Shown: in pieces, positions 5,082 through 33,012 of the stretch | Layout: every line of letters starts with the position of its first letter | Position numbering within the stretch: position 1 is the first letter of the stretch | Assembly: GCF_003627795.1 (NCBI RefSeq) | Contig: NZ_CP032687.1 | Span: 310,001 to 374,000 of the forward strand | DNA length: 64,000 nucleotides | Direction of reading: 5' to 3' | From: Rhizobium sp. CCGE531 | GTDB taxonomy: Bacteria > Pseudomonadota > Alphaproteobacteria > Rhizobiales > Rhizobiaceae | The notes under the pieces: model-generated | Told to the model about the DNA's origin: nothing | Seen by the model: the letters and a program-made list of their open reading frames with translations, nothing else | Database searches by the model: none | Translations under genes and position numbers: made by a program

Positions 5082-6035
5082 TCAACTCACATAGCTCAGA
5101 TAGGGCCGATATAGGGGAAACGTGATAGCTTCCGGTAGGTTGCTGATTACCGCCAGCGCGGTGACCGCGTTGTAAAAAATGACCTCTTTCGGCATGCCCT
5201 TGTCTGCCTGCGTTAGCGCATCTAATACGCTGCGATTCGTGTGAAAATCGATGTTGAAGGAAATCGAGGCCGATAAGCTGCGAACGTGATGGAGCGTTCC
5301 GGGCGGCATATAAAGGATGTCACCGGGATTTACCGTGATTACGACGGGTGTCGCTCGCTTGTACTGCGGAAAGCGCACATAGTCCGGTTGCTCCGGGTCC
5401 ACATCAAACCACCGCCAACCTCGGCGTGCACAGCGGGTGGCTTGGCTGGGTGGGAGAATGGTGAACTGCTTCGCACCGAAGATTTGGAAAAATAGGTTAT
5501 GGCTAAGCAGCGTATCGAAGTGGAGGGGGGTAACGGTTCCTTCCGGACCCATGAAAAACTGCGTATAGCGCCACCAGTGCCGGCGGTAAGACGAACTGAC
5601 AAAGTTAACCGGGAAGGGCTGACAGTCCTCCGCCAAGCTCTCCACTAAGCCCAGTAGGGGGATGTCGTGGCAGTAGGGTGCCGCTCTCGCGTTCAATGAA
5701 GAGGCTCCATCGTGGCAAGATGGTGACTCCATTACAAACCGGGCGTATTTTGCTAGTTCCCAAGAAGAGACCTTAATCTCGCTGCCGTCGAGCGTTTTGG
5801 TGGGCACAATCATTGACCCGGCGACTTTCTCAAAATACTCAGGTGACCAGCGCTGACAGGCACTCCAGGCTGCACAGCCTCCACGTAGGAGAACCGGCCG
5901 CATGGGATCTCGGTAGTTCGTCGCAAATTCCCAGTCAAATAGCTCTGTCACTGTAGGAATCGATGACCAGCCAGAGTCTTCTAGCGGCGCCAATGAGGAT
6001 GCTACTGTTTCGAGTTCAACCATTTTTAATCTCAT
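5082..6035 (-). CDS. Cupin-8/JmjC-like Fe(II)/2-oxoglutarate oxygenase
   Basis: Cupin_8 (JmjC-like) fold protein. The facial metal triad is visible as HFD in TPLHFDTLLSHN plus a distal His in LYMPPGTLHHV, with a Lys in GAKQF placed to bind 2-oxoglutarate. The family hydroxylates proteins, peptides or amino acids in the cytoplasm. The longest frame begins at a GTG at 6176, but the first 47 residues do not look domain-like. I prefer the ATG at 6035; another ATG at 6023 has GAGA upstream. It shares its strand with the ATP-grasp, aminomutase and kinase genes further right, which suggests a tailoring role on an amino acid or peptide (inference). The substrate is unknown. Confidence 0.75.
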   Translation of the reverse strand: MRLKMVELETVASSLAPLEDSGWSSIPTVTELFDWEFATNYRDPMRPVLLRGGCAAWSACQRWSPEYFEKVAGSMIVPTKTLDGSEIKVSSWELAKYARFVMESPSCHDGASSLNARAAPYCHDIPLLGLVESLAEDCQPFPVNFVSSSYRRHWWRYTQFFMGPEGTVTPLHFDTLLSHNLFFQIFGAKQFTILPPSQATRCARRGWRWFDVDPEQPDYVRFPQYKRATPVVITVNPGDILYMPPGTLHHVRSLSASISFNIDFHTNRSVLDALTQADKGMPKEVIFYNAVTALAVISNLPEAITFPLYRPYLSYVS

Positions 6036-6176
6036 ATTTTGCGTGAATTCGTTGAGCGACGACTCCCATCGCGACCGTAGCGAATTGGCTAACCAGCAGC
6101 ATGCGGTATTAACCTTTTGGACGGGTAAGTAGACCTTATATTTATGCAGGCGGCGGTCGAAACGTAGACCCGGCAC

Positions 6177-6894
6177 TATCGAACCACTCGGGTCCCATTT
6201 CCGTATGCTTGCTCACATACTCACGAGCACTTGTCGCGGAAGGTGTCGTTTGCACCGAACTCTCTGAGCTTTGTAAACCGCATGGGATCACAATTCCCGC
6301 AGACGCCCGGGTGTACATTCATTCCTGTCATTTTCCTGTTAATTTCCGGATAGTAGGATATTCCGAATGTGCCCACCTGCTCAACTATTAGTCTTGGTAG
6401 TTGGTGTATATACATCTGAGCAGACCACCTCGGATGCGTACTGTCGACCGCGCGCATACAACTCGACCGCAAATGTCGGGATCTGGAACGATGCGCACGA
6501 GATAGGTGCTGGTTTCCATTGCTTTTGACGGATGGAGCGTGCTGAAACCAACGCATCAACGGCAGGGCGTTGCTTTTGCAAAGCAGGTAGAGACGTGGGG
6601 AAGTGACCTTCTCACCAGCAGCTTTGGGTTCGCACCAGTTGGCGACTTAATTGGCAATCGCGGTTTGCTGAACATCTGGCGTCGGGACGCTCGGCTGACC
6701 GTATGTCGGCGAGGAGATCTTGAAGATCGTCAATCCCATTTTCGGTCAGGCCTTTCATGGCGGCGATTTCTTGTGAGCAAGATAAAACCTCCACCTTCGG
6801 TGGAGCGTAAGCCCCGTCTGTGTCCATCGGTTCGGCTGCTTTTTGCAGCATAGGTTCGAATGCGAGAAGGTTTCCAGGCGCATATGGAAGCTGA
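6177..6894. other. Gene-poor stretch before IS66 copy 2
   Basis: About 700 bases upstream of the cupin gene and left of IS66 copy 2. Several overlapping frames (6209-6391, 6506-6853, 6730-7186) lack known motifs and credible starts. A GTAAGC sequence at 6812 resembles an IS66 terminus, but no matching right end with a direct repeat was found, so the left end of copy 2 is not fixed. The cupin promoter probably lies in the first 200 bases. Confidence 0.35.
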
Positions 6895-7279
6895 ATGATG
6901 GATGATGGATTTGTTGGTCGCTACGAGGTTGTTGAGCCGCGCCGCGGTAACCGGCGGTGGCCGGATGAAGTGAAGGCTCGAATTGTGGCGGAAAGCCTTG
7001 AGCCTGGTGTGCGAGTTGTGGATGTCGCGCGTCGTCACGGCGTAATAGCGAACCAGCTTTCCGATTGGCGGCGTCAGGCTCGCAACGGCATTCTGATACT
7101 GCCGCAATACTGCCGTCGGAGCGCAATGGTGTCGAGCCAGCGTTCGTGCCTCTGCCAATCGCTGCGGAGTCGCCTGAGCCTGTCACTCGTTTGTCGCTGC
7201 CGAAGCCGGCCTCCGACGGGCCTCAGGCGCAGGTTTTGACGTTGGAGATTGGCTCAGACATAGCGATACGGGGTCCTAA

Positions 7280-9098: not shown

Positions 9099-10961
9099 TC
9101 AGTTGAAGGTTTTGGCGTGTCTGGCATTTTCCTTATGGGCGGCGAGGCGATCGACGAGTTGGTTCCATCGACTGCATTGCTTTTGCGGTAAATCGCTCTT
9201 CGGAAGCTCGTACAGGTAATAGTGTCCGTTGTAGGCATGGCTGGTGACGAGGCCATGTTCAGCCCATCTGGCGAGGGTATGCTCATGGATATTGAGGTGT
9301 GCAGCCGCCTCCTTCTTTGTCAACATCCCACGATCCCGGAGTCGGTCATAGCGTGATCTCAGCTTGTATTCGCGAACAAGATAGGTGACGCGTTTGGTTG
9401 TGAAGCGGGCGTTGCGCTGGTCACGGCGCGTCACCGAGCCCGGACGGTATCCCTGATTGTTGAGAATGTCGGCGATCTCGGAAAAAATATGATCGTCGAG
9501 GAGTTTATCGATCAGTTGGATGACGTCGGGGCTCGTCTTGACCTGCTGGCTGGGCGATTTTGGGCTGATGGTGACGAGTGTCTGGGTTTTGCCGCCTTTG
9601 AAGCGAATATGAGCCTTGGTTGTGCCTCTCTTCGGTAGTTTGAGGAGGGTGACATCCTCAATGATGTGGGCAAGCAAGCGCTTTCGTTCGCGGTTCGGGG
9701 TCTCTGAATTGGTCCAGAGCTTTTTGAAGTCCGCCGTCATTGTGACCAACCGCTCGTGGACGGCCTTATTGAGGATGAATTGATCGTGCTCCTGGGCGCG
9801 CTCGCGCTCTTCGCGGGCATTAGCCAAGATGCGGAGCTTCTCGTTCCATTCCCCTTCGAGCGTGTCGGCGACAAGGCGGTTATTGGGATCGACGAGCATG
9901 AAACGGCGCTGGGCGAGATCGGCCTCGGTTTGGGCGCGCTCGATTGCGCGACAGCGCAGCCGGTCCGCCTCTTCATGTCGCGCTTCGATTTCTTTGCGGA
10001 CTTCAATTGCCAGTTCGACGGCTGCCGGCGTCATCTGATCCGCGATCAACATGCCGATGGCTTCGTCGACGGGAGGAGCAGCGATCGCCTGGCACACGTG
10101 TTCTCCGCGATTGCTACGGGCGCGGTCACAAACGTACCAGGCTTCCTGTCGACCGCGTCGGGCAGCGTAGCGCATGTGAAAATGCCTGCCGCATTGCCCA
10201 CACACGGCCCGTCCCTGCAGCACGCGCATCGCCGTCGAAGGCGTCAGTGGCCGAAAAACAGTCTGGCTATCGTGCAGGCGGGAGGGAAAGAGAATACCTT
10301 CCTGACGAACGGCCTTGACGGTCTGGGAGGCGGATCCGACGCGAGAGAACGTCTCAAAGAAATGAGCAATCGTCTCTCTAATTTGCATGTCCGGATCGAG
10401 AGCCACATTGCCGGAATGGTCATAGACCAGTCCGGTTGGCAGGGGGCAACGGAACTCGCCGCGCCGTGCCTTGTTGAGAATACCGCCGCGCAGCCTTGCC
10501 TTGATCACATGCAGTTCGGCCTCACTCATTGTTCCCTTGAGGCCGAGCAGGAGGCGGTCGTTGAAACTTGCCGGGTCATAGACACCGTCCTCGTCGAGGA
10601 TCAGGGTGTCAGCAAGGGCGCAGATCTCCAGTAGACGCTGCCAGTCGGCATTGTTGCGCGCCAGCCGGGAGACCTCCAGACCCATGACGATCCCGGCATG
10701 CCCCATGCCGACATCGCTGACCAGCCGCTGAAATCCCTCGCGCCAGACCGCCGATGCGCCGGATTCACCCTGATCGTTATCGATGACGATAATTTGCTCC
10801 TCGCGCCAACCAAGTGCGATAGCGCGCCCGCGAAGCGCATATTGCCGCATGGCGCTCTCGGTATTGTCGATGACTTGCCGCATCGAAGATTGGCGGATGT
10901 AGAGGTAGGCGCTGCGTTCACGGTGATGGGACTGGACTTTGAGGTGTACATTCATGTTCAT
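9099..10961 (-). CDS. Large serine recombinase, internally deleted
   Basis: 620 residues. The N-terminal resolvase/invertase catalytic domain has the Ser nucleophile in YIRQSSMRQV (about residue 25), and VMGLEVSRLARNNADW and MSEAELHVIKARLRGG follow. A recombinase region comes next (GLVYDHSGNVALDPD), then a zinc ribbon (CGQCGRHF...WYVCDRAR), a coiled coil, and a C-terminal helix-turn-helix (TKKEAAAHLNIHEHTLARWAEHG). Relatives I remember have roughly 100 more residues between LTPSTAMRVL and QGRAVCG (the NPRYAGAY segment). Here the two join directly, an in-frame deletion in the DNA-binding recombinase domain. Start ATG overlaps the preceding stop (ATGA). Confidence 0.88.
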   Translation of the reverse strand: MNMNVHLKVQSHHRERSAYLYIRQSSMRQVIDNTESAMRQYALRGRAIALGWREEQIIVIDNDQGESGASAVWREGFQRLVSDVGMGHAGIVMGLEVSRLARNNADWQRLLEICALADTLILDEDGVYDPASFNDRLLLGLKGTMSEAELHVIKARLRGGILNKARRGEFRCPLPTGLVYDHSGNVALDPDMQIRETIAHFFETFSRVGSASQTVKAVRQEGILFPSRLHDSQTVFRPLTPSTAMRVLQGRAVCGQCGRHFHMRYAARRGRQEAWYVCDRARSNRGEHVCQAIAAPPVDEAIGMLIADQMTPAAVELAIEVRKEIEARHEEADRLRCRAIERAQTEADLAQRRFMLVDPNNRLVADTLEGEWNEKLRILANAREERERAQEHDQFILNKAVHERLVTMTADFKKLWTNSETPNRERKRLLAHIIEDVTLLKLPKRGTTKAHIRFKGGKTQTLVTISPKSPSQQVKTSPDVIQLIDKLLDDHIFSEIADILNNQGYRPGSVTRRDQRNARFTTKRVTYLVREYKLRSRYDRLRDRGMLTKKEAAAHLNIHEHTLARWAEHGLVTSHAYNGHYYLYELPKSDLPQKQCSRWNQLVDRLAAHKENARHAKTFN

Positions 10962-11266
10962 GGTGCTCTCCGTTGGTGGATGCTCATGGCGATGGTCGCC
11001 AGGACATGAACGACGGCGCTGAGGTCGTCGCGCGCCGGTCGGGTGGCCAATGACAGGTAAAACGGGTCTTGATCAGGGCTTGCCGCCGCAGGCAGTGCAC
11101 GGGCCCATCCCCACATGCCGCGGCGCAGAAAAAGCATGAGGCCGCTACGGGCCTTGAGCGGCAGAACTTCGCCGAGAGCTGCACTGCGCAGCATCTCGTA
11201 CTGGTCCGCGATGGCCGGCAATGAACATGCCGGTCCCGTGGCAACGTCTAGCAGATCGTTTTTTTT
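10958..11266 (-). CDS. Small linker protein of recombinase module (start unclear, possible -1 frameshift)
   Basis: About 95 codons ending ATGA-coupled to the recombinase start. Recognisable conserved text: AIADQYEMLRSAALGE, MLFLRRGMWGWARALP and VVHVLATIAMSIHQRR. Function unknown. No ATG lies before codon 20 or so. The frame is open through the run of eight A (minus strand, 11259-11266) near the end of the upstream HTH gene, so it could be made by -1 slippage as a fusion to the HTH protein, or start at an internal TTG (SLPAIAD). Kept as a gene because the sequence is conserved in the module as I remember it. Confidence 0.55.
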   Translation of the reverse strand, partial: KKNDLLDVATGPACSLPAIADQYEMLRSAALGEVLPLKARSGLMLFLRRGMWGWARALPAAASPDQDPFYLSLATRPARDDLSAVVHVLATIAMSIHQRRAP

Positions 11267-11709: not shown

Positions 11710-11832
11710 TGCGGGCTCCGGGTATGAGATCGAGCATTAATGTAATGCTAATTATACCGCACTTCTGATTTGTATCAAGGACATTCTCTGAGCAAATTAG
11801 GGAAATGTGCCGTACAAATCGGGATATATTGC

Positions 11833-14070: not shown

Positions 14071-14178
14071 GCTCGTCAGGTACTATCCGGTGAGCTCATA
14101 TCCGGCCTCAGGAAACACTATTGTTGAGTCGCTGAAACTGAAAAAATCAATGGGGCGTAGACGCCGCACACGGCGGAG

Positions 14179-14313: not shown

Positions 14314-14342
14314 TGCATCTCAAAAGCTGCTCGAGCAGATGC

Positions 14343-15590
14343 TTACAATTGTTCCTGTTCGCCAATGTTCGGAAAAGGTGTAATCGACCAACTGATTAGG
14401 TTAACGGCACGCTCAAGTATGATCTCGGTCTGACTGCGACTGGGTGAGGTGGCAATGACGTGTCCAATCGAGTCTCGGTCATCGCTTTTCCTGACGAACG
14501 GCGTCTTCGGTTTAAGGTACAGTTCAATCTCGGCGACACCGGGTTCAGCGGCTGCCTGCCTATCGCCATCGATCCAATCGAGGATGCCATCGGTATCAGG
14601 AACTAGGAATCGTGCGGCCGCCGTCTGCGAACGTCTTCGGCTCAAATCCCATTTCTCGCCTATGACAAGCTTGATGTGCTGATTGATGAGATCGACACCG
14701 TACGCCAGCTGAACCAGCCGAGGAGTGGTCCAACCCGGAAGACGCGGATTGACTTCAATAGCGACTGGACCTCGCTTCGTCCACCGCAATTCAATGTTCG
14801 CTGGCCCCCAACCAAGACCGAGAGCTCGTAAGCAGCTTAGTGAAACATCGGCGATGCACTTACATTGACCATCAGTTAGGGGCGCCGGAAAGATGCTCTC
14901 ACGAACGACGAAATGCGGTGGGCTGCCAAACTTGGCGGTGCCAATTGCAACGACCTCATTCCCCATTGTGTCGACACTATAGTATGATCCTTGAGCGAAC
15001 TCTTCGATTAGTATCCCTGGCGAAGATCGCCAGATGTGCTTACCGCCCAGCAGATAAGTCGTGTGTTCAGCCACCTCCGTGATGTTGCGGCATAATCGGA
15101 CCCCGCTGCTGCCGCTGCCAGTGACTGGCTTAAGTATCACCGGCAGACCAATCTCCTCTGCAGAGCTTTCAACGTCCGTTGCATCCGTTGCCAAGCGGTA
15201 GGCAGGTATTGGAACGCCCGCCCGTGCGAGGAGTTGACGTTGAACGAATTTGTCGTAGCACTGTTCAATCGATGCTGGGTCTGGTCCGGGTAGATCGAAA
15301 TGGCGGCAGAGCCTCCCAACTGTCACATAGACCGATTCATCTCGGCCCGCGAACCCAGTGATACCCGCGATGTCATAAGTCGCACGTAGCTGGGTACACT
15401 CATGAATCATTGCATCGAGATCGCCTGTATCGACACGGATTGCTTGTACCCTTTTTGCCGAAATATAGTCGTACTGAGCTGGGTCAACCGATAGAGTAAT
15501 TGGTTGAATGCCAAGGCGCTGGGCAGCTTGAATATACAGAGGACCATTACCTCTACTACCTTCAACTAGGATGAGCGCTCTTCTTGCCAT
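14343..15590 (-). CDS. ATP-grasp ligase family protein (paralog 1)
   Basis: 415 residues. Pre-ATP-grasp N-terminal domain (RRALILVEGSRGNGP...), ATP-grasp domain with the nucleotide-binding Lys in PVILKPVTGSGSSGVRLC (about 150-170) and the metal-binding Glu/Asn in VAIEVNPRLPG (about 280), and a C-terminal domain like those of L-amino-acid ligases (SQTAAARFLVPDTDGIL). The family joins a carboxylate to an amine through an acyl phosphate; peptide bond or amide formation between amino acids is the likely chemistry. It is about two-thirds identical by eye to 31729-33012. The ATG start is shared with the paralog (MARRALIL). The C terminus is shorter and meets IS debris, so it may be slightly altered. 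Resembles y4rH of NGR234 from memory. Confidence 0.82.
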   Translation of the reverse strand: MARRALILVEGSRGNGPLYIQAAQRLGIQPITLSVDPAQYDYISAKRVQAIRVDTGDLDAMIHECTQLRATYDIAGITGFAGRDESVYVTVGRLCRHFDLPGPDPASIEQCYDKFVQRQLLARAGVPIPAYRLATDATDVESSAEEIGLPVILKPVTGSGSSGVRLCRNITEVAEHTTYLLGGKHIWRSSPGILIEEFAQGSYYSVDTMGNEVVAIGTAKFGSPPHFVVRESIFPAPLTDGQCKCIADVSLSCLRALGLGWGPANIELRWTKRGPVAIEVNPRLPGWTTPRLVQLAYGVDLINQHIKLVIGEKWDLSRRRSQTAAARFLVPDTDGILDWIDGDRQAAAEPGVAEIELYLKPKTPFVRKSDDRDSIGHVIATSPSRSQTEIILERAVNLISWSITPFPNIGEQEQL

Positions 15591-21705: not shown

Positions 21706-21714
21706 TACTGAACG

Positions 21715-22956: not shown

Positions 22957-24102
22957 TCATCCTTCGGGCAGATCGTCCAACCAACAGGCGCCTTCGAGGT
23001 TCGGCCGGGAAAAGATCTTTCCGATCTTTTCTGAAGCCTTGTTTTGGTGATATCGCATATAGACGCGGCCATCAGTTCCAAAGTCGAGAATCTCGATCTT
23101 ACCTGTGTAATGCGACATGATGTATTTAAATGTCTTTTGAATGCCGCTCAGGCGTTGGTTGATGCCATGCGAAATCTCCAGGCCGCGGCGCAGTGGAACC
23201 TGAAAATGCGATGCACCTTTCACCGGCCTGCCTTGAAATAGGTAATATGGGCGGACACCCATATGGTGACACTTGGCGAAGGTCGCGGCCAAAATGTCGG
23301 GGTCATCGTTGACTTTCGCGAGAAGCACGCACTGGTTTAGGAACTGCGTACCACGCGCCCGCAATGACCGAATGCTTCGCTCCGCGTCGGCCGAAATTTC
23401 GCCGATATGGTCAAAATGCGTAACGATCACTGCGGATTTTCCAGCTACATGGATCCGTTCGAACAAGGCCACTAGAGCAGGATCCTCAAACCTTTGGGGC
23501 GTGTAGGCGAGCATTTTTGTGCCAAAACGAATGGAATTCAGATGTGGGAATGGCAGCAGATGATCAAGAATTTCATGGAGGCTGGCGGTGTTGAGCACGA
23601 ACGGGTCACCTCCTGATATCAGGACGTTCGTCATCTCAGGATGAGCTCCAATGTATCGCGCAATCTGCCCTAGGTCAGCTGCGATTTCATCTGAGTCCTT
23701 GCCAACAATGCGTTTGCGGAAGCAATAACGGCAGTATGAAGCGCAGCGGTCCGTTGCAAGCAACAATCCTGTTTGCGCGTACTTGTGCTGAAACCCGGGC
23801 GCGACCGTGTTTTCGTGCTCTCCGCTGGTATCCAGAGTGCCGGGACCGTTGAACTCTTCGAATGAGGGCTCGACGATGAATTTAAGCTGATCATAATGAC
23901 CACTGTTGATGATCTGTTCACGATAGAATTTTGTAACACGATAACGCGTGATGCTGTTTGCTTCCACCTCGGCGGGGGTGACTGCGCGTGCCCCCTCAAT
24001 GAAATTTATGATCTTGGACGACAACAGCGGGTCCGAACTGATGAGCGGAGCCACTTTTAATTGTTTTGTCGTCTTACCTTGGATAGTTCGAGTGGTCTTC
24101 AT
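22957..24102 (-). CDS. Radical SAM lysine 2,3-aminomutase-like enzyme (KamA family)
   Basis: 381 residues. Radical SAM cluster motif CxxxCxxC in DRCASYCRYCFRKR (Cys 120, 124, 127) and the family blocks TNVLISGGDPFVL, RFGTKMLAYTPQRF, GTQFLNQCVLLAKVNDD and GVRPYYLFQGRPVKG, with a possible PLP Lys in SHYTGKIEIL near residue 325. KamA enzymes move an alpha-amino group to the beta position (lysine, glutamate or arginine) using 4Fe-4S, SAM and PLP. The C-terminal cysteine cluster of clostridial KamA is not evident. The start is the ATG at 24102. It stands alone between IS5 debris and an IS3 element, on the same strand as the ATP-grasp and kinase genes. The substrate cannot be told from sequence. 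Confidence 0.85.
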   Translation of the reverse strand: MKTTRTIQGKTTKQLKVAPLISSDPLLSSKIINFIEGARAVTPAEVEANSITRYRVTKFYREQIINSGHYDQLKFIVEPSFEEFNGPGTLDTSGEHENTVAPGFQHKYAQTGLLLATDRCASYCRYCFRKRIVGKDSDEIAADLGQIARYIGAHPEMTNVLISGGDPFVLNTASLHEILDHLLPFPHLNSIRFGTKMLAYTPQRFEDPALVALFERIHVAGKSAVIVTHFDHIGEISADAERSIRSLRARGTQFLNQCVLLAKVNDDPDILAATFAKCHHMGVRPYYLFQGRPVKGASHFQVPLRRGLEISHGINQRLSGIQKTFKYIMSHYTGKIEILDFGTDGRVYMRYHQNKASEKIGKIFSRPNLEGACWLDDLPEG

Positions 24103-24467
24103 CTAGAGCCCTTAATTAAAGAAGGCGAGAGGCAATTGTCGTACGGTTCTTCGTTATGCACCTGCAATCAATGTGCCGTCGACGATCTGATTGCTGTCAA
24201 AGTGACGCAAAGTCAGGTTACGCAGGCGTCCACAGAATACGAGGGTCTTCAGGGTGTCAGGGCCAGAACAGAAATGGACCCAATTTGACACGGCCAATGT
24301 AAGGAATGATTGAGCCGTTGTTTTTCGAAGCACCATCTGATGTTGTTGCCGCCGCGCATGTCATGCGCTTGTCTTGCGGCGTGCTGATTTTTTGGCGCGC
24401 GTGGCTGGGGCTTGGCTGGACGCGCTTCTCGCTCTTTCCATAGACGTAGACGCCTGCGTAGAAAGTT
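24103..24467. other. Upstream region of aminomutase gene
   Basis: About 365 bases with no convincing gene, ending at the left terminus of the IS3 element. Short frames on both strands lack motifs. The natural promoter of the aminomutase gene, or the upstream gene of its operon, would lie here before the IS3 insertion. Confidence 0.4.
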
Positions 24468-24506
24468 TGAACCGCGCCGGGTTTGCCGGAGGCCGTTTGG
24501 TTTAAG

Positions 24507-24614
24507 TTATGCGGCCATGGCTGGCGCGTCCAGCATGGCATAGTAACGTTCTTCGGCTTCGGCAGGCGGAATGTTTCCTATGGGCTCCAGAAGACGCCGG
24601 TTGTTGAACATGGG
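24507..24614 (-). pseudogene. IS3 OrfB, detached C-terminal fragment
   Basis: Encodes FNNRRLLEPIGNIPPAEAEE through MLDAPAMAA and a stop, the usual end of OrfB in this IS3 group. It belongs to the orfB body at 25972-26826, whose own frame breaks off at WVDWLFN. The IS110 element lies between the two pieces. Confidence 0.85.
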
Positions 24615-26010
24615 GTAATCGCGGTGCGATCCCCTCTGACAACCAAGTTCATTGCGGGGTGGTTGCCCCCCGATAAGATGGAAAAACGGGCTCACGATCT
24701 GCACCAGGCCCAAGCATCGAATGGAGAGCAACCATGGAACAGTATATCGGCCTTGATGTTTCGCAGAAAGAGACCGCGATTTCGATTCGGCAAGGCGGCT
24801 CGCGGATTTGGCGAGGCAAGTGCGCATCAGATCCCACAGTCCTGGCAGCAATTATTCGCAAGCAAGCACCCAATGTGAAGCGCGTGGTTTTCGAGACGGG
24901 TCCACTCTCGACATGGTTCTACCACGCGCTATCGTCTGAGGGATTGCCTGTGATTTGTATCGAAGCGCGCCACGCGCAGAAAATTTTGAACGAAACGCTA
25001 AACAAGACCGATGCCAATGACGCGGATGGATTAGCGCAATTGGCCGAGGCCGGCTTTTACAAGGCTGTTCGCGTGAAGGGCTTCGATGCCATGCTGACCC
25101 GCACTTTGATCGGCGTTCGCAAGCAGGTCGCGGGCATGTCGATCCAGCTCAGCAACCAAATCCGTGGTGTGATGAAGACGTTTGGCCTCATCGTGCCAAG
25201 GAGCAAAGGCCAGGTATTCGAGGGCACGTTCGAGAACTGCTCGCCGGCAACGACAATCTGGCCAAGGTGATATTACCTCTGGTCGATGCATGGCGCGACA
25301 TCCGCAAGCATGTTGCCAACTTGGACCGGCAGTTGCTGGCAGCGGCGCGCAACAGCAAGGCAGCCAAATTACTGATGACAATCCCGGGTATCGGCGCCAT
25401 CACCTCGCTGTCGTTCTCATCCGCGATTGAAGATCCGGACAACTTCAAGCGATCTCGCTCTGTCGGCGCCTGGCTCGGATTGACCACGAGACGATATCAA
25501 TCCGGAGAAATCGATTACGACGGCCACATCTCCCGTCGTGGAGATAGCCACTTGCGAAGCCTTCTCTACGAAGCGGCGATGGTGATGCTCACGCGAACCA
25601 AGTCCCGAAATGACAGTAGCCTCAAGGATTGGGGCTCAGGCTTCGAGAGCGTCTCGGTATCAAGCGTGCCGCCGTTGCAGTGGCGCGTAAGTTGGCCGTC
25701 ATCATGCACAGGATGCTGAAGATGGGAGAGCCATTCAACCGGTTGGTTGTCGTTCCCGCATAATCCGAGGCCCTAAAAGTCAGAAATTCTGCGCGTCACG
25801 ATCGTCGCGTGAGAGGTCCCTGCCGCGGACGTGGGTCTGGTCATTCCGTTTAGATTGGATGCAGTTCCTAAAACTGCGTGTTGAACATAGGAAGGCCATT
25901 CCTGCGAAGACCATGATGCGGCGGCTCCTGCCGACCGCGGAAACAACCCCGCTCCCGGCCGGTGATTATCCTCACACAAAATCTGGACGAACGGGCTTGA
26001 CCTGTGCGAT
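24615..26010 (+). mobile_element. IS110-family element inside IS3 orfB
   Basis: The 1.4-kb insert separates the two parts of IS3 orfB (...GTTGTTGAACA at 24614 and AAACAACCAATCC at about 26011). It carries an IS110-type DEDD transposase gene with two frameshifts. IS110 elements have no terminal inverted repeats, and the ends are set here only by where the IS3 sequence stops and resumes. Bases 25764-26010 are non-coding and would hold the 3' end and bridge-type RNA region that IS110 elements can carry; no fold was tested. Confidence 0.75.
24734..25763 (+). pseudogene. IS110-family transposase, two frameshifts
   Basis: N-terminal DEDD RuvC-like domain: YIGLDVSQKETAISI, FETGPLSTW, KTDANDADGLAQLAEAG. 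The frame should read TFRELLAGNDNLAKVILPL but is shifted near 25234 by one missing base. The C-terminal domain (transposase_20 type) follows at 25267 with LLMTIPGIGAITSLSF and FKRSRSVGAWLGLTTRRYQSG, including the Ser nucleophile region. A second missing base near 25634 shifts the end (LKDWGLRLRERLG expected), and the final codons LVVVPA stop at 25763. Length restored would be about 340 residues, normal for the family. Confidence 0.85.
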
Positions 26011-26826
26011 GCGATTAAACAACCAATCCACCCATTCGAGTGTGGCGAACTCCACGGCTTCGAAATTGCGCCATGGTCCCCGCCGATGGATGACCTCGGC
26101 CTTGTAGAGGCCGTTGATCGTTTCGGCGAGAGCGTTGTCGTAACTGTCGCCGACGCTTCCAACGGAAGGCTCGATGCCTGCCTCCGCCAGCCGTTCGGAA
26201 TACTTGATCGATACGTATTGAACACCCCTGTCGGAGTGGTGGATGAGACCACCGCGATGGACTGGCCGCCGGTCATGGAGTGCCTGGTCCAGGGCATCGA
26301 GGACGAAACCCGCATGAGCGGTTCGGCTCGCCCGCCAGCCGACGATGCGGCGGGCGAACGCGTCGATCACGAAAGCGACGTAAACGAAGCCTTGCCAAGT
26401 GGCTACATACGTGAAATCGGAAAGCCACAACATGTTCGGCGCGGGAGCGCAGAACTGGCGGTTCACGCGGTCGAGCGGACATAGAGCGGCCTTGTCAGAC
26501 ACGGTCGTTTTGACGGGCTTTCCACGGATAATGCCCTGAAGACCCATCATTCTCATAAGCCGAGAAACAGTGCATCGAGCTATGTCGAAGCCTTCCCGCT
26601 GCAACTGCCGCCATACTTTCCGCACGCCGTAGACTTGGAAATTCTCATTGAACACTCGGCGTATCTCGACCTTCATGGCCGCGTCGCGACGAGCGCGGGC
26701 CGACAGGCGGTCCACGTCCGTGCGCTTGGCGATGGCGTCATAGTAAGTGGACGGGGCAATCGGCAGCAGCCTGCAGATCGGCTCGACCCCGAACTTTGAG
26801 CGGTGTTCGTCGATGAAGGAAATCAT
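25972..26826 (-). pseudogene. IS3 OrfB transposase, 3' end cut by IS110
   Basis: DDE integrase of the IS3 family: an HTH_21-type N-terminal segment (NFQVYGVRKVWRQLQREG), then PNMLWLSDFTYVATW (first Asp), GLIHHSDRGVQYVS (second Asp) and DNALAETINGLYKAE (Glu). The coding sequence is intact to WVDWLFN at about 26008; beyond that the frame runs into IS110 and ends as IAQVKPVRPDFV. The true C terminus is at 24507-24614. It starts at 26826, overlapping the orfA stop by 4 bp, which fits IS3 translational frameshifting or coupling. Confidence 0.88.
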
Positions 26827-27149
26827 CGCTTCAGTGGGCGGTCGAGCTCCGCCTGGGCAAAATAAGCCGACGCCTTGCGCAAAATCTCATTGGCCTGTCG
26901 AAGCTCGCGGTTCTCCCGCTCAAGGGCCTTCATCTTCTCGGCGACGTCGCTTGGAAGGCCTGCTCGTTTGCCGCTGTCAACATCGGCCTTCTTCACCCAC
27001 TCATGCAGCGTATGTGCCGAGCAGCCAATCTTGGCGGCTATGGATGAAACTGCCGCCCACCGGGATGGATGCTCGGCCTCATGGTCCAAAACCATGCGGA
27101 TGGCTCGGTCACGAACTTCAGGTGAAAATTTGTTGGTCGTCTTGCTCAT
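26823..27149 (-). CDS. IS3 OrfA (helix-turn-helix)
   Basis: 108 residues. HTH_Tnp_1 domain ([19 protein letters not shown]...[18 protein letters not shown]) and a C-terminal leucine-zipper helix ([27 protein letters not shown]), the standard build of IS3 OrfA. It binds the terminal repeats and regulates or joins OrfB in the OrfAB transposase. Full length. It begins at an ATG near the right terminal repeat and overlaps the start of orfB. Confidence 0.92.
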
Positions 27150-27202
27150 ATCGGCTCCACTTTCTCACGAGTTGGAGCCTCCGGCAAACCCGGCGCGGTT
27201 CA

Positions 27203-27639
27203 GTTCTTGAGGATGCCGATCACATTGCGATAACGGACTCATGTCCAGACGAAACTGGTCATACGCCCTTCGTCCGACGGCCGTGGGAAGTGAATCTGAT
27301 CTTTCGTCGTAGACAGCAGCACCTGGCGTGCGTTGCCGTGTTAGTGGAAGCGGGCGAAGATGGATCGGATCACATTTTGCAGACGCAACTCGGGATCAAG
27401 CCCAAGCCCCGCCTCTCGACGCAAAATGTAGCCGAACGGCACAGAAAGGCGCAATTCGCCGCACCGCGCTTTCGATCTGGCGGCATCGAGCATTCGAGTT
27501 CTTAGCACGCCCAATTCGAACTCGCCTGCTGCCGTTCAACTTCGCCAGAACCGAGGCCGCCTGACACGATACGGTTCCAAACGTTGAGCCGATACCAATC
27601 AGCGTGTTGGCGTCAACATGCAGCGAAAGTCACGCTTAC
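27203..27639. other. IS debris without intact genes
   Basis: About 440 bases right of the IS3 element. A short in-frame end LLPFNFARTEAA with a stop near 27563 resembles the C terminus of IS66 TnpC proteins, so some of this is old IS66 sequence. Nothing else was recognised. Confidence 0.4.
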
Positions 27640-27963
27640 GACGAAGGCAGGATGCCGATCGGCAACAATTTGCTGGAACGTGATATCAGAATCTTCGCCA
27701 CTGGAAGAGAGTTGGCTCGTCTGTCTAGCGACACGGTCCAGGGTGCCAAGGCCAGCGACGTCATTTATAGCCTGATACTGACCTGTCGTGCCTGCCGTGT
27801 CGGACCTTCGCCTGGTTGCGGCACGTCCTCACCGCTGCTGCGGCGCCCCGACGATGCCAATATCGTATCCCCACGCCGAGGACCGCCTTGCTTTGTCACG
27901 GTGATAGCGATGTTTTGCTGAGGTGAGCGGTATCGCCACGTTGCTAACAACGAGGATAACGAC

Positions 27964-28341
27964 GTGTCTATCCATCAGCTTGAGATTTTGGCGGGCAGTA
28001 TGCGGCGCCGGAAGTTCACACGAACTTCCAAGGAATCGATCGTTTCGGAGACGCTGACTGGCGAGATGACGGTGACGGAGGTTGCGCGACGTCACGACGT
28101 TGATCGGTCACTGGTTTATCGGTGGCGTCGTGAGCTTGGTGTTGCAGAGAGAGCGGAAGAGCCGCGCGCCTTCGTTCCGGTGAAGGTACAACAGGCGCCG
28201 GACTCGGCAATGGGAATGCCGGCTGCGACGGCGTCTTCTGCGATCGAAATCCATGTTGGCCGGGGCCGGTCGGTGCGGGTCACTCGTGACTTTGATGCCT
28301 CGACGTTGTCGCGCGTGCTTGATGTGCTGGAGGGACGATGA
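27964..28341 (+). CDS. tnpA: IS66 TnpA (copy 3)
   Basis: 125 residues. N-terminal helix-turn-helix region (RTSKESIVSETLTGEMTVTEVARRHDVDRSLVYRWRRELG, shown here in part) and the conserved end IEIHVGRGRSVRVTRDFDASTLSRVLDVLEGR. The frame starts at a GTG (27964); an ATG at 28000 (MRRRKFTR) is an alternative. The stop overlaps the tnpB ATG (ATGA at 28338). Accessory DNA-binding protein of the element. Confidence 0.9.
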   Translation: MSIHQLEILAGSMRRRKFTRTSKESIVSETLTGEMTVTEVARRHDVDRSLVYRWRRELGVAERAEEPRAFVPVKVQQAPDSAMGMPAATASSAIEIHVGRGRSVRVTRDFDASTLSRVLDVLEGR

Positions 28342-28685
28342 TCCCGATCAGTTCGAACGTCAGAGTGTGGATTGCCAGCGGTCACTGCGATATGCGCAAG
28401 GGTATGCAGGGGTTGGCTCTCATCGTGCAAGAGGGGCTTAGCCGCAATCCGTTCCAGGGCGACGTTTTTGTTTTCCGCGGGAGAAATGGTCGATTGATCA
28501 AGGCCCTATGGCATGACGGTGTCGGACTATCGCTTTATGCCAAACGGCTCGACCGAGGCCACTTTATTTGGCCGGCGACAGTGGACGGAGCCATTGCCCT
28601 TACAGCCGGGCAGATGTCCTACCTTCTTGAGGGAATAGACTGGCGAAATCCGCAACAGACATGGCGTCCGACGAGCGCCGGATAG
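28338..28685 (+). CDS. tnpB: IS66 TnpB (copy 3)
   Basis: 115 residues, full length, with the family blocks VRVWIASGHCDMRKGMQGLAL, GDVFVFRGRNGRLIKALWHDG and LLEGIDWRNPQQTWRPTSAG. It starts at the ATG of the ATGA overlap with tnpA. Accessory protein required for IS66 transposition; mechanism unknown. It is close to TnpB of copy 1 (285-638). Confidence 0.93.
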   Translation: MIPISSNVRVWIASGHCDMRKGMQGLALIVQEGLSRNPFQGDVFVFRGRNGRLIKALWHDGVGLSLYAKRLDRGHFIWPATVDGAIALTAGQMSYLLEGIDWRNPQQTWRPTSAG

Positions 28686-28719
28686 GTGCATTTTGCGGCT
28701 CGAACCTTGAAGAAAAGCT

Positions 28720-30411
28720 ATGCAAATCAGTGGTTTGTGGTTTGATCCGGACATGGAAAACGGCCTGGAAAACCACTCCGATTATGCCGCTGCACTTGAA
28801 GCAGAGCTGGTCGTGGCGCGTGCGGAGCGCGCCGTTGCCTTAGCCGAACTTGCCGTCGCCAAAGCCAAGGAAGCGGACGATCAAGCCACCATTCTGCGTC
28901 AGAAGGTCCATATCGAAAAGCTGCAAAGGCAATTGCGTGGTCAGAAATCGGAGCGGACTGCCAGGCTGATCGCTCAAATGGAGCTGATGCTCGAGGATGC
29001 CGAGGCGGCGGCCACCGAGGATGAACTTGCCGCTGAAATGGCCATTGCTGCGGCCGCCCCCATTGCTGTCGCCGGCTTCACACGCAAACGCCCCGTTAAG
29101 AAGCCATTCCCCGATCACCTGCCGCGCGAGCGTGTCGTTGTGCCCGGTCCGGTCGCCTGCAGCTGCTGCGGTAGTGACCGGCTGCGCAAGCTGGGCGAAG
29201 ATGTCACCGAGACGATGGAGAGCATTCCACGCTCCTGGAAAGTCATTCAGACGGTGCGCGAGAAGTTCACCTGCCGCGACTGCGAGAAGATCAGCCAGGC
29301 ACCGGCCCCATTCCACGTCATTCCCAGAGGCTGGGCAGGTCCAAGCCTTCTGGCGATGATCCTCTACGACAAATTCGGCCAACACATTCCCCTTAATCGT
29401 CAGGTGGAACGATTTGCGCTTGAGGGCGTGTCAATCAGCCTGTCGACGGCAGCCGATGCTATCGGTTCTTGTTGCCATGCCCTTGATCCAATCCTGAGGC
29501 GGATCGAGGCTCACACCTTTGCAGCCGAGCGGATTCACGGCGACGATACCACGGTTCCGGTTCTCGCAGCCGGCAAGACCGATACTGCTCGGATCTGGAC
29601 ATATGTGCACGATGATGCCGCGTTCGGTGGCACGGCGCCGCCGTCGGCGATGTTCTATTATTCCCGCGACCGCAGCGGTGACCATCCGCAGGCGCATCTG
29701 GCCGGCTATTGCGGCATCCTGCAAGCAGATGCCTATGGCGGTTATACCAAGCTCTATCTTCCTGATCGCAGTCCATGTCCGATCTATGAGGCAGCGTGCT
29801 GGGCGCACGCAAGGCGACCATTCTTCATCATGGCCGATCTCGAGGCCAATGCCCGGCGCAAGGCTCAGGGCAAACCCGCTGCCGTCATCTCACCAATCGC
29901 CATCGAGATGGTGCGCCGGATCGATGCGCTGTTCGAGATCGAACGTCAGATCAATGGCCAGACGGCCGATGAGCGCAAGGCGACGCGTCAGCAGCATAGC
30001 AAGCCACTGATCGCCAACATGGAGCGGTGGGTGCGCGAGCAACGTGCCAAGCTGTCTCGCGACAATGATCTGGCCAAAGCGTTCGACTACATGTTGAACC
30101 GCTGGGTATCGTTTACTCGTTTCCTCGACGATGGCCGGATCTGCCTGTCGAACAACGCGGCAGAGCGTTCGCTGCGCGGAATTGCATTGGGAAGAAAGGC
30201 TTGGCTATTCGCCGGCTCCGACCGTGGTGGTCAACGAGCTGCCGCCATGTACAGTTTGATCGTCACCGCAAAGATGAACCATGTCGATCCGCAGGCCTGG
30301 CTTGCCGATGTGCTTGCCCGTATCGCCGACCACCCGGCAAACAGGATCGACGAGTTGTTGCCGTGGGCTTGGAAGGCCGAAAAGGCGGCACCTATTGCGG
30401 CGGCCGCGTAA
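28720..30411 (+). CDS. tnpC: IS66 TnpC transposase (copy 3)
   Basis: 563 residues, intact. N-terminal coiled coil, [12 protein letters not shown], a zinc-binding domain ([16 protein letters not shown]...[12 protein letters not shown], about 145-190), the DDE core with [29 protein letters not shown] and the Glu in [13 protein letters not shown], and the C-terminal end [12 protein letters not shown]. Catalyses cut-and-paste or copy movement of IS66. The ATG at 28720 is used; another at 28756 is possible. Its 3' end overlaps the DUF6429 gene on the other strand by 20 bp. It serves as reference for the broken copy 1. Confidence 0.95.
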
Positions 30412-30625
30412 ACAGTTCCCGAAACAGCTCCTCTGACCGTTGCAGGCCTTCATCCGTTAAGATCAACGACTTCGACTTGTTCACCGGATCGGCGATCAGC
30501 CCCTTCTTGAACAAACGATCCGTCGTCTCCCAGTCCAAACCCTTCCAGGCTCGATACCCGTCATGCAGCGTCAGCCACAACAGCGCCAGCACCGCATCGT
30601 CGATCTTGTCTTCGTCGATATCCAT
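30392..30625 (-). CDS. DUF6429-family passenger protein of IS66
   Basis: 77 residues: [40 protein letters not shown] and [17 protein letters not shown]. Small acidic, helical protein matching DUF6429 from memory; it is often found at the end of IS66 elements in Rhizobiales. Function unknown. It converges on tnpC with a 20-bp overlap and lies inside the IS66 ends, so it moves with the element. A truncated copy of its first codons survives at about 14230-14260. Confidence 0.8.
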
Positions 30626-30804
30626 TGCGAGAGCTTATCACGTGCAAATACGAAATTAATGCGGTACTCGCCGAATGCGTACCCAATATCGAGGATCTGC
30701 TGCCCTTCAACTTCAAAAGCCAGCCAGCATAAGCCGCCGCTCTTCAAAACGATTTACGACGTGCACTGAAAAGAGCGCTACCAATAATCAGCAATGCAGG
30801 ACGA

Positions 30805-31650
30805 TTATTGAGCCTGCGGTAGGTTGTTGCCACAAGTGTGGCGGTCGCTCCTATCCCTTGCAAACGGGACAAACCAGGTTGATGGGCCACCGTTCTCGAT
30901 GGCCGACAGCGGGTAAGATTTGTTTCCCTTCGCGATGATCATGTTACACCCGGCATCCATGGCGATCCTTGCTGCCATCAACTTCGTCAGCATGCCACCC
31001 GAACTATGACGAGAGACGGAATGACCGGCCATGGCCTCTATTTGGGGGGTAATGCGTCGCACCTCTGTGATCAAACGGGCCGACGGGTTGTCGTGTGGAT
31101 CTTCCGTGAAGAGGCCATCTATGTTGGAAAGCAAAATAATTATGTCAGCCTGCACCAACTCTGCGAGCTGGGCCGCCAAACGATCATTGTCGCCAAAACG
31201 GGTTTCGGCAGTTGCGGTTGTGTCGTTCTCATTGATAACGGGAACGGCGCCAACTTTGAGGATTTGTCGAACAGTTGACAGAACATTGAGTCGGCGATGC
31301 GGGTTGCGTAGATCTTCGCCCATCAATAGTATTTGTCCGAGTCCAAATCCAAACCGTTTTAAGCTCTGTTCGAAGGCAAGCATGAGTCGAACTTGACCGA
31401 TGGCTGCAGCCGCTTGTCGCTCTTCACTTCTCAGAGGAACGTCAAACTCATTGAAGTGACGTGACCCAACCGCGACAGCACCGGAGGTCACGATGATCAC
31501 CTGCTGCCCACGTGAGAAAAATCGGACCACATCTTCTATCATCGTTTCAAGCCAAGAACCGCGAATGTCTCCGGTTTCTCCGTCGGCAATTAGTGCAGAG
31601 CCAATCTTCACGATTATTCGATGAGCGGAAATTAATTGCGCCGTGGTCAT
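30805..31650 (-). CDS. proB: Glutamate 5-kinase-like protein without PUA domain
   Basis: Amino-acid kinase fold. Visible motifs: IIVKIGSALI (substrate/ATP loop), VIIVTSGAVAVGSRH, VPVINENDTTATAETRFGDNDRLAA (glutamate binding) and IILLSNIDGLFTEDP, GGMLTKLMAARIAMDAGC. ProB phosphorylates glutamate to gamma-glutamyl phosphate. This protein ends just after the kinase domain (TWFVPFARDR) and lacks the C-terminal PUA domain of long ProB proteins. I choose the ATG at 31650, with GCGAGG upstream; the frame extends to 31689. The gap to the ATP-grasp gene is under 80 bp, so the two are probably one operon. No proA gene is near, so proline synthesis is not the obvious role. Confidence 0.82.
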   Translation of the reverse strand: MTTAQLISAHRIIVKIGSALIADGETGDIRGSWLETMIEDVVRFFSRGQQVIIVTSGAVAVGSRHFNEFDVPLRSEERQAAAAIGQVRLMLAFEQSLKRFGFGLGQILLMGEDLRNPHRRLNVLSTVRQILKVGAVPVINENDTTATAETRFGDNDRLAAQLAELVQADIIILLSNIDGLFTEDPHDNPSARLITEVRRITPQIEAMAGHSVSRHSSGGMLTKLMAARIAMDAGCNMIIAKGNKSYPLSAIENGGPSTWFVPFARDRSDRHTCGNNLPQAQ

Positions 31651-31728
31651 CAAGTGTTGCCTCGCTAAAAGGAACGCACGTCTCTGCAATCTACACTGGG
31701 CAACTCAATATTCATTGCGAATTGCCCT

Positions 31729-33012
31729 TTACCTAGAGCCTTTGAGGCTGCTGGAGGAGTTTAACGGCACGGCGTGTTCTTCTTCGCCAGAGGTAGAGAA
31801 TGGCGTGATCGACCAATCGATTAGACCGACCGCATGCTGAAGTATGGCCTTGGTCTGTGCAAAGCTGGATGAAGCGGCGATCACATGTCCTATGCGGTCC
31901 CGGTAGTCACCTTTCCTGACTATCTGCGTCTTAGGCTTAACATAAAATTTGACCTCTACAACGCCCGACACGGCAGCCGCCCGACTGTCGCCGTCGATCC
32001 AACTGAGGGTGCCATCGCGATCAGGGAGTAGGAATCGCACGGCTGCAGTCTGGAGATACGTGGTGCGTAAGTCACATTCCACGCCGGTGGCAAGCTTAAT
32101 GTGCTCGGTTACGAGATCGACACCATAAGCAAGATGAGCCCGCCGAGGATAGGTTCCGCCCGCAATACGCGGATTGACTTCTATTACAACTGGGCCACGC
32201 GTCGTCCACCGCAATTCAATGTTGGTTGGCCCCCACCCAAGTCCCAGAGCTCCCAAACAGCGCAGCGCCACGTCGGAGATTCGCTCGTGCTCGTCGTTAG
32301 TCAGCAGGGCCGGAAAGATGCTCTCACGAAAGAGAAAATGTGGTGGATGATCGAAATCGGCGGCGCTAATCCCAATGACCTCATTTCCCATCGTGTCGGC
32401 TTCATAGAACGGGCCCTGTGCGAATTCTTCGACCAGGATCTTCGGTGAAGACCGCCATGTATGCTTCCCACCTAAAAGATGGGCCGTATGTTCGGCCAAC
32501 TCGGCGACGTTTCGGCACAGTCGAACACCGATGCCGCCGATACCCCCGATCGCAGGCTTGACCACCACTGGCAGGCCGATTTCCGCGGCACAGCTTTCAA
32601 CCTCCGCCGCGTTAGTGGCCAGGCGATAAGCAGGTATCGGAACGCCTCCATCAGCGAGCAGGCGACGTTGAATGAATTTGTCGCAACATTGTTCGACCGA
32701 AGCGGGGTTTGGTCCCGGTAAATCGAATTGCTGGCAGAGCTTTCCGGCGGTCGCGTAGACCTTCTCCTCGGCGCTTGTAATGCCAACAATTTCGTAGGTC
32801 TTACCCAGCCGAGAGCATTCGTTGATCAGCGCATGGAGATTGTCTGTATCGACTTGGATTGCTTCAACACCTCCCGCTGCGAGATAGGGGTACTGAGCTG
32901 GATCGGTCGATAGGGTAATTGGATGAAGGCCAAAACTCTTGGCAGCTTGGACATATTGCTCACCAGTACCATGTCCGTTGCCTTCAAGCAGGATGAGCGC
33001 TCTTCTTGCCAT
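31729..33012 (-). CDS. ATP-grasp ligase family protein (paralog 2)
   Basis: 427 residues with the same build as 14343-15590: N-terminal RRALILLEGNGHGTGEQYVQ, ATP-grasp loop LPVVVKPAIGGIGGIGVRLC, metal ligands in VVIEVNPRIAGG, and an amino-acid-ligase-like C-terminal domain (LLPDRDGTLSWIDGD...). Expected to activate a carboxylate with ATP and join it to an amine. It starts with ATG, as the paralog does. The C-terminal tail is longer than in paralog 1 (SGEEEHAVPLNSSSS). It is the first gene of the probable operon with the kinase. Two related ligases could add two different residues, or one may be a spare copy. Confidence 0.85.
   Translation of the reverse strand: MARRALILLEGNGHGTGEQYVQAAKSFGLHPITLSTDPAQYPYLAAGGVEAIQVDTDNLHALINECSRLGKTYEIVGITSAEEKVYATAGKLCQQFDLPGPNPASVEQCCDKFIQRRLLADGGVPIPAYRLATNAAEVESCAAEIGLPVVVKPAIGGIGGIGVRLCRNVAELAEHTAHLLGGKHTWRSSPKILVEEFAQGPFYEADTMGNEVIGISAADFDHPPHFLFRESIFPALLTNDEHERISDVALRCLGALGLGWGPTNIELRWTTRGPVVIEVNPRIAGGTYPRRAHLAYGVDLVTEHIKLATGVECDLRTTYLQTAAVRFLLPDRDGTLSWIDGDSRAAAVSGVVEVKFYVKPKTQIVRKGDYRDRIGHVIAASSSFAQTKAILQHAVGLIDWSITPFSTSGEEEHAVPLNSSSSLKGSR

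Follow-up and report, generated by a model that had tools for sequence, protein, structure and literature searches.

Five minus-strand genes in a 64,000-nucleotide stretch of Rhizobium sp. CCGE531 DNA (the window; bases 310001-374000 of a 577,596-base replicon in a genome of 7.14 Mb) encode a cupin-type oxygenase, two ATP-grasp ligases, a KamA-type radical S-adenosylmethionine (SAM) aminomutase and a short ProB-like glutamate 5-kinase. We give a probability of about 0.6 to the reading that these genes are a form, scattered by insertion sequences (ISs), of a symbiotic-plasmid locus predicted to make a small amide-linked non-protein amino acid in nitrogen-fixing nodules. The same replicon carries nifH at 285434, and positions 30683-50334 of the window share 99.8% identity with the symbiotic plasmid of Rhizobium tropici CIAT 899. 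An earlier interpretation of the window (the sequence-only reading) had proposed a locus for a modified amino acid or short peptide. This was borne out in that the locus recurs, with a modified amino acid or short amide as its best-fitting product. That reading did not include the predicted kamA promoter, the near restriction to nifH genomes, the nearby ectB or the catabolic genes in the right half. Searches of the open-licence literature in PubMed Central (PMC) brought up no paper on the locus.

Protein families of the five genes

The sequence-only reading had placed five open reading frames (ORFs) on the minus strand and named their families. All five were recovered at the same positions, each open from start to stop (Table 1), and profile matches returned the same families, namely cupin_8, two ATP-grasp proteins, a KamA-type protein and a glutamate 5-kinase domain. 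Both ligases have the ATP-grasp fold together with an LAL_C2 domain above the cut-off of 29.4 bits. The ProB-like protein scored 254 bits against the TIGR01027 cut-off of 186, with residues 24-275 of its 294 aligned to model positions 2-253 of 363, and thus carries the kinase domain of glutamate 5-kinase. The interval between the ProB and ATP-grasp 2 genes, earlier described as under 80 bp, is 39 bp when measured to the mechanically assigned TTG start of ProB; the larger figure fits a later ATG. ATP-grasp ligases are frequently multi-copy on plasmids (208 places in 100 records), and a third one lies on the window's plasmid at 382.7-383.9 kb, outside the window. Plasmid-borne relatives of the cupin protein are few, with four rhizobial records at a coverage of at least 86% and 73-99% identity, and one more partial match at 70%.

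The genes recur together on related plasmids

Related plasmids hold the same genes in closer arrangements. In CCGE532 (locus L061) the order is LuxR, EctB, RpiR, KamA and ATP-grasp 1, followed on the opposite strand by ProB and ATP-grasp 2 and then by GNAT and C45 genes. KamA, ATP-grasp 1, ProB and ATP-grasp 2 lie there within 5.4 kb, and the gaps of less than 0.5 kb are too small for an IS. CB3090 (L062) has the CCGE532 order plus an ATP-binding cassette (ABC) binding protein, with the four genes within 6.7 kb. It was considered as a second IS-free relative and rejected because ATP-grasp 1 and ProB are separated there by an rve-type transposase ORF, so that CCGE532 alone remains for the four genes. 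NXC14 (L063) carries KamA, RpiR, cupin, ATP-grasp 1, an ISL3-type transposase ORF, ATP-grasp 2, an IS66 element and C45. The uninterrupted cluster expected in related plasmids was therefore found for four of the five genes, in CCGE532; the cupin gene stands elsewhere, in NXC14 with KamA and ATP-grasp 1. That no genome would show the genes together does not hold, as CCGE532, CB3090 and NXC14 all do. The grouping goes beyond chance, since four of the five genes lie in close proximity on related plasmids, in one case without room for an IS.

Other relatives preserve parts of the set. In R. lusitanum, R. leucaenae and R. freirei (L003-L006), ATP-grasp 2, ProB and KamA follow in a row with a ProB-KamA gap of 468 bp, and ProB adjoins ATP-grasp 2 in L051, L061 and L062. 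Accessory plasmids of Sinorhizobium meliloti carry EctB, aspartate-semialdehyde dehydrogenase, an aspartate-kinase-like gene, ATP-grasp, KamA and ATP-grasp; on pHRC017 the aspartate-kinase-like gene is a remnant. The ProB-ATP-grasp 2 pair runs opposite in direction to KamA in CB3090, CCGE532 and NXC24. Because of this reversal, and because KamA has its own predicted promoter of NifA/sigma-54 type in many relatives, the earlier proposal of one ancestral operon was dropped.

A genome scan gave 41 loci, of which a distant one (L043, a 35% match) was set aside. Among the remaining 40, the fetched flanks contained an ATP-grasp protein of some type at 26 and EctB (46-82% identity) at nine, and a condensation domain stood directly upstream of KamA, sometimes fused to it, at 12. 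On the plasmid side, annotated context was taken for 15 of the 27 plasmids with a close KamA (at least 73% identity), from a gene table that is incomplete and lacks the rve-type ORF of CB3090 and the ISL3-type ORF of NXC14. Gene content differs by strain and host; transporters (MATE or MFS) and regulators (LuxR/RpiR) are present at certain loci. A condensation domain of non-ribosomal peptide synthetase type is fused to or just before KamA in several genera, Mesorhizobium among them (L013:8270-11083, L044 and others). In Bradyrhizobium, KamA is followed by a gamma-glutamyltransferase, a seven-transmembrane protein and a Ddl-like ATP-grasp (L018:1309-4960, L045). R. etli NXC12 has an ectoine-synthase-family gene between KamA and ATP-grasp (L053:18466-18855).

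KamA proteins of the locus form a subfamily with an altered substrate pocket

The window KamA fell well short of the curated aminomutase models, scoring 161 bits for AblA (cut-off 525), 176 for EpmB (cut-off 369) and 164 for glutamate 2,3-aminomutase (cut-off 650). The three radical SAM cysteines, Arg292 and Lys335 were kept in all 44 aligned KamA proteins. By pattern, the CX3CX2C motif and the pyridoxal phosphate (PLP) lysine were found in 120/120 and 118/120 proteins of a wider set. The position of Asp293 in lysine 2,3-aminomutase is Arg in 44/44 KamA proteins, and by pattern in 119/120 of the wider set, while the equivalent of Asp330 is Ile in 43 and Ala in one. We take Asp293 and Asp330 to be the residues that bind the lysine amine. 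The numbers Asp330 and Lys337 of lysine 2,3-aminomutase are likewise assumed here; Asp293 can be counted in the alignment.

Because the Asp293 position is Arg throughout, lysine is unlikely to be the substrate of KamA, and beta-lysine, which the sequence-only reading had offered as a building block, is unlikely on the same grounds. The replacement of the amine-binding Asp by Arg suggests that the substrate probably has an acidic side chain, with beta-glutamate as a possible product. Lysine 2,3-aminomutase activity or EF-P beta-lysylation was considered and rejected, as neither the curated models nor the pocket residues agree with it. We name these proteins here as a KamA subfamily whose substrate pocket is altered.

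A predicted NifA/sigma-54 type promoter recurs upstream of kamA

Upstream of kamA in the window we found a -24/-12 box and a NifA activator-like site (Table 1), defined by what we take to be the consensus sequences of such sites. Motif matches within the window were rejected as evidence by themselves. TGT-N10-ACA occurred nine times against 8.4 expected and TGGCAC-N5-TTGC (one mismatch) five times against 5.7 expected, so only a position-specific test across loci counts. Since start codons were assigned mechanically, each region was scanned from -500 to +150 of the KamA start (certain contigs begin closer). Boxes were allowed at most one mismatch with GG/GC fixed, and the background was taken from all loci fetched by then. 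Such a box was present on the coding strand in 27/49 KamA upstream regions and on the opposite strand in 0/49, where the background predicts 0.024 per region. The 49 regions include nine plasmid loci, one place counted twice (L019 = L050) and the four near-identical R. tropici-group loci L003-L006. Six later plasmid loci, scored by the same rule, added one box (L045), giving 28/55 on the coding and 0/55 on the opposite strand.

The boxes are spread across the subfamily. When KamA proteins were clustered at 85% identity, 10 of the 12 clusters included at least one protein with such a box; it was lacking from the L031/L039/L040 cluster and from the R. tropici group, the latter having a two-mismatch box. 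Of the 27 boxed regions, 18 also had a TGT-N10-ACA site at a distance of 40-200 bp upstream from the box, a pairing that has no control. When 12 promoters were aligned, the longest stretch without variation was ATTGC, part of the box, and the exact activator site stood at the matching place in six. The two-mismatch box is found in the window, CIAT 899 and CB3090, with the activator site also in the window and CB3090. NXC14 has a one-mismatch box before a condensation-like ORF upstream of KamA. The recurring predicted promoter of NifA/sigma-54 type before kamA in many relatives is new here, as is the near-constant presence of nifH in the sampled KamA genomes (described below). A perfect -24/-12 box also occurs at 55015-55029 on the minus strand, antisense within the second C45 gene, and is probably there by chance.

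KamA is nearly restricted to genomes with nifH

An order-wide sample (KamA in 1/297 genomes) was too thin in symbionts and was therefore replaced by genus samples. Among 148 Rhizobium genomes KamA was found in 16 and nifH in 57, and 15 of the 16 KamA genomes had nifH, the exception being G377. Relatives of ATP-grasp 2 occurred in 33 Rhizobium genomes, 31 of them with nifH. All 33 KamA genomes among the 195 Bradyrhizobium genomes sampled carried nifH, which was present in 123/195 overall (Fisher p 3.9e-8; Fisher tests here are uncorrected for relatedness). KamA is thus nearly restricted to nifH genomes in the two sampled genera. A search of 5.8 billion proteins returned 2743 proteins, and among the best 120 all those with an organism name were rhizobial.

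Uptake and catabolic genes adjoin the locus

The right half of the window holds an uptake system and a series of catabolic genes (Table 1). EutB (533 bits, cut-off 413) and EutC (555, cut-off 472) matched their ectoine-catabolism models. The two EutD-like M24 proteins scored 562 and 407 bits against a EutD/DoeA cut-off of 613, the M20 protein scored 211 against the DoeB2 deacetylase cut-off of 550, and the family score of the racemase-like gene was below its cut-off.

The M20 gene was used to follow this set across genomes. It was present (E of at most 1e-100) in 48 plasmid records, all from genera with root-nodule bacteria, and on 23 of the 27 plasmids with a close KamA. Taking the best M20 place per plasmid, it lay within 50 kb of KamA in 18/23 against 5.3 expected if positions were uniform, and within 30 kb in 8/23 against 3.2. 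This uniform null is too generous because symbiosis genes cluster on these plasmids. In the Rhizobium sample, M20 was present in 15 of the 16 KamA genomes; five further genomes had M20 without this KamA, all with nifH, and one of them (G400) carries the other KamA subfamily. Among Rhizobium nifH genomes, with five near-identical R. tropici-group genomes removed and that of the window kept, M20 was found in 9/10 with KamA against 5/42 without.

EctB and published nodule data

EctB is encoded on the window's plasmid at about 299.6-300.8 kb, 9 kb outside the window, with 77-80% identity to S. meliloti EctB and an RpiR-type gene after it. In relatives EctB stands beside KamA, in some together with aspartate-semialdehyde dehydrogenase and aspartate-kinase-like genes.

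Extracts of several papers bear on these genes. Deletion of dat, which encodes diaminobutyrate aminotransferase, in a pea strain left no diaminobutyrate in pea nodules and lowered competitiveness, an effect that the authors attributed to homoserine and pantothenate metabolism (PMC10228743). The only ectB relative on pRlvC, which is 74% identical to CB3090 EctB, is assumed here to be dat. Nodules of a P. phymatum nifA mutant had less ectB transcript and less diaminobutanoate (PMC8305402). In R. leguminosarum UPM791 pea bacteroids, RLV_1884 ('lysine 2,3-aminomutase') and RLV_1844 (diaminobutyrate aminotransferase) were among the 50 most detected proteins, and according to the extract neither was detected in vegetative cells (PMC7950203). 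The KamA encoded on pRlvC beside an ATP-grasp is probably RLV_1884, since size and neighbours agree. It lies near fixABCX-nifA and belongs to the other subfamily (29.5% identity to the window KamA, 464 bits for AblA). At that UPM791 locus (L049:15960-21071), a Glu dehydrogenase, a family-less protein, ATP-grasp and the AblA-like KamA adjoin fixABCX-nifA. B. diazoefficiens bll8232 (named KamA) and bll8231 (gamma-glutamyltranspeptidase) were listed among genes that change in nodule development (PMC8632152). Because of this neighbour, bll8232 likely belongs to the window's KamA subfamily.

A proposed pathway and its possible purpose

We propose that NifA and sigma-54 would switch on kamA in bacteroids. 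EctB would supply 2,4-diaminobutyrate, and KamA would shift an amino group from C2 to C3 in an amino acid with a probably acidic side chain, beta-glutamate being the simplest candidate. Activation of a carboxylate may fall to the ProB-like kinase, the ATP-grasp ligases may couple two amino acids, and in certain strains the cupin protein may hydroxylate the product. The compound would then leave the nodule, and relatives with the ABC transporter, the M20/M24/C45 hydrolases and the EutBC genes (39-63 kb) would import and degrade it.

Rhizopines, as defined in an extract of PMC10107442, are compounds whose synthesis is tied to NifA in nodules and whose catabolism genes are, as a rule, also present in the producers. 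For the predicted compound a rhizopine-like role is the most likely purpose, but we hold it with less certainty than the pathway and put its chances well below even. With similarly modest odds, the locus might represent a second, amino-acid-based class of rhizopine-like compounds. These would be NifA-controlled, strain-specific amide-linked conjugates of beta-amino acids and diaminobutyrate, made by bacteroids with the new KamA subfamily and harvested by free-living kin through dedicated genes, and accessory variation (ProB, PanD, EctC, cupin, condensation domain, gamma-glutamyltransferase) might give each lineage a private compound. If the proposed pathway is right, many nodule bacteria turn on an uncharacterised metabolite pathway along with nitrogenase. 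This would offer a testable route to the success of strains in nodule competition, which matters in practice for inoculants (R. tropici CIAT 899 is one), and could connect the diaminobutyrate and KamA-type proteins reported in bacteroids.

Opposing evidence and alternative explanations

Several observations weigh against the proposed NifA-controlled pathway and its purpose. The box in the window's own kamA promoter has two mismatches, 22 of the 49 KamA regions have no box of at most one mismatch, and CCGE532 has none even at two mismatches, having the activator site only. At up to two mismatches, no box precedes ectB, ATP-grasp 1, ProB, cupin, M20 or any first catabolic gene tested in the window; the exceptions among non-KamA genes are a distant box before the first C45 gene and the weak one before ATP-grasp 2. 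In extracts of the published work, the pea-strain authors did not find a NifA site before dat (PMC10228743), and symbiosis was fully effective when M. loti msi260, a diaminobutyrate transaminase gene that is poorly expressed without nifA2, was disrupted (PMC3538637). Known rhizopines are inositol-derived, whereas this locus is one of amino-acid chemistry; its families are amino-acid enzymes with no inositol or mos gene among them, mos genes not having been searched for elsewhere in the genome. Transposase ORFs lie inside the locus in CB3090 and NXC14 too. The locus is mosaic, and its linkage could therefore reflect shared plasmid history. Finally, among Bradyrhizobium nifH genomes M20 was found in 7/33 with KamA against 17/90 others (p 0.48), and outside the R. 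tropici group it was found in only 11/36 KamA genomes. A KamA-M20 pairing as a general rule was rejected, as it fails in Bradyrhizobium. With M20 at background there and at 11/36 outside the R. tropici group, a functional tie between KamA and the catabolic genes is suggested for Rhizobium and Sinorhizobium plasmids only.

The best surviving alternative, which we nonetheless consider unlikely, is a nodule-made amino-acid antimetabolite or plant-directed effector that would act in the manner of rhizobitoxine or phaseolotoxin and not serve as a nutrient, with the nearby hydrolases being self-protective or unrelated. ATP-grasp ligases, aminomutases and oxygenases are common in antimetabolite pathways, and the MATE or MFS transporters, the LuxR/RpiR regulators and the variation in composition among strains and hosts are consistent with such a product. 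However, none of the five proteins scored up to the cut-off of a curated toxin-pathway model, and the uptake ABC system and catabolic genes next to the locus speak for a compound that is imported and used.

Considerably less probable is an ectoine-type osmolyte system, in which a solute resembling ectoine would be formed from EctB diaminobutyrate, while genes in the right half of the window would recycle ectoine or hydroxyectoine. The EctB equivalog scores, the EutB and EutC equivalogs in the window, the NXC12 ectoine-synthase-family gene by KamA and ATP-grasp (135 bits, cut-off 128) and the Ehu-annotated transporters beside an M20 relative in NGR234 all fit this explanation. On the other side, the two GNAT genes of the locus had no NCBIfam match, EctA included, and both M24 proteins and the M20 protein are below the ectoine hydrolase and deacetylase cut-offs. 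EctC was not found in the strain's own genome, a weak point since control genomes gave no match either. The established pathway of ectoine synthesis, moreover, requires neither an aminomutase nor ATP-grasp ligases.

That unrelated genes were merely brought together on an IS-rich symbiotic plasmid, with no common pathway, is just as improbable: many IS elements, recombinases and rearrangements, the 14 of 40 genome loci without an ATP-grasp in the fetched flanks (several contigs being short) and the missing M20 pairing in Bradyrhizobium would fit, but the set recurs in varied arrangements on Rhizobium, Sinorhizobium and Mesorhizobium plasmids, an ATP-grasp does accompany KamA at the other loci, and the kamA promoter is conserved.

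Insertions and other features of the window

In CIAT 899 and R. lusitanum, only 27 bp lie between the sequences that flank the inserted block at 24421-30683. The block ends upstream of the KamA promoter, which is therefore intact in the window. The spacers between the five genes do not consist of IS elements only, as had been supposed. They also hold, at 9099-11836 on the minus strand, a 620-aa serine recombinase and an adjoining 292-aa protein without a Pfam match. At other loci, too, related recombinases are encoded near KamA. A group II intron reverse transcriptase (1596-3137, plus strand) lies immediately left of an IS66 transposase ORF. Further right, a CocE/NonD (S15) hydrolase gene (35603-37504, minus strand) is fragmented in the window and is listed as a single 1782-base gene in CIAT 899.

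Table 1. Positions of the five genes, the predicted promoter elements and neighbouring features in the window
Feature	Position	Strand	Scores and context
cupin_8 / JmjC-like oxygenase	5082..6176	-	PF13621 119.8 bits; accessory, sporadic
ATP-grasp ligase 1, L-amino-acid-ligase type	14343..15590	-	LAL_C2 52.0 bits, ATP-grasp_4 46.9; adjoins KamA in L061, L062
KamA-type radical SAM aminomutase	22957..24102	-	TIGR00238 183.3 bits (below the cut-off of 199.2); 2a5h 134 bits
-24/-12 (sigma-54) type box CGGCACATTGATTGC	24164..24178	-	upstream of KamA, 2 mismatches
NifA upstream activator-like site TGT-N10-ACA	24255..24270	.	about 90 bp from the box, start to start
Inserted block with IS110-, rve- and IS66-type transposase ORFs	24421..30683	.	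between KamA promoter region and ProB
Short glutamate 5-kinase-like protein, kinase domain only	30805..31689	-	AA_kinase 141.9 bits; proB 254.2 bits
ATP-grasp ligase 2, L-amino-acid-ligase type	31729..33012	-	LAL_C2 61.3 bits; best solved chain 4wd3, 47.6 bits
Weak sigma-54-like candidate box, 2 mismatches	33097..33111	-	upstream of ATP-grasp 2; identical letters in CB3090
C45/AAT family hydrolase or acyltransferase 1	33649..34671	+	NF040521 219.6 bits; linked to the locus in L061-L063
M24 peptidase	37633..38823	-	PF00557
ABC uptake system (binding protein, ATPase, permease)	39371..43497	+	PF13416, PF00005, PF00528
Class III aminotransferase, CMD protein, M24 peptidase (EutD-like)	44917..48223	+	
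M20 amidohydrolase, EutB, EutC, racemase-like, M24 (EutD-like)	49014..54253	+	
Second C45 protein and second class III aminotransferase	54372..57240	+	
Aldehyde dehydrogenase, two CoA-transferase subunits, Glu/Leu/Phe/Val dehydrogenase	57346..63441	+	minus-strand family-less ORF between

Comparison with known systems

The window KamA shares the radical SAM motif and the PLP lysine with LAM/AblA, EpmB and the glutamate and arginine 2,3-aminomutases, but it is far below the equivalog cut-offs and has Arg for Asp293 and Ile at the Asp330 position. The window ligases have ATP-grasp and LAL_C2 in common with L-amino acid ligases (4wd3, BL00235, BacD and the dapdiamide synthase DdaF), to which they are only weakly similar. 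EutB and EutC are shared with ectoine/hydroxyectoine utilisation (eut/doe), whereas the window is without EutD/DoeA and DoeB2 model matches and has extra aldehyde dehydrogenase, CoA-transferase and C45 genes. In UPM791, where the EctB relative presumed to be Dat is encoded on pRlvC, KamA and ATP-grasp stand beside fix/nif genes. Dat and RLV_1884 are both abundant in bacteroids, but the RLV_1884-type KamA is of another subfamily than that of the window. The catabolic link seen here was not found in Bradyrhizobium, which sets the locus apart from the rhizopine mos/moc system (3-O-methyl-scyllo-inosamine); the likeness to that system would lie in the predicted NifA-type promoter combined with a nearby uptake and catabolic set.

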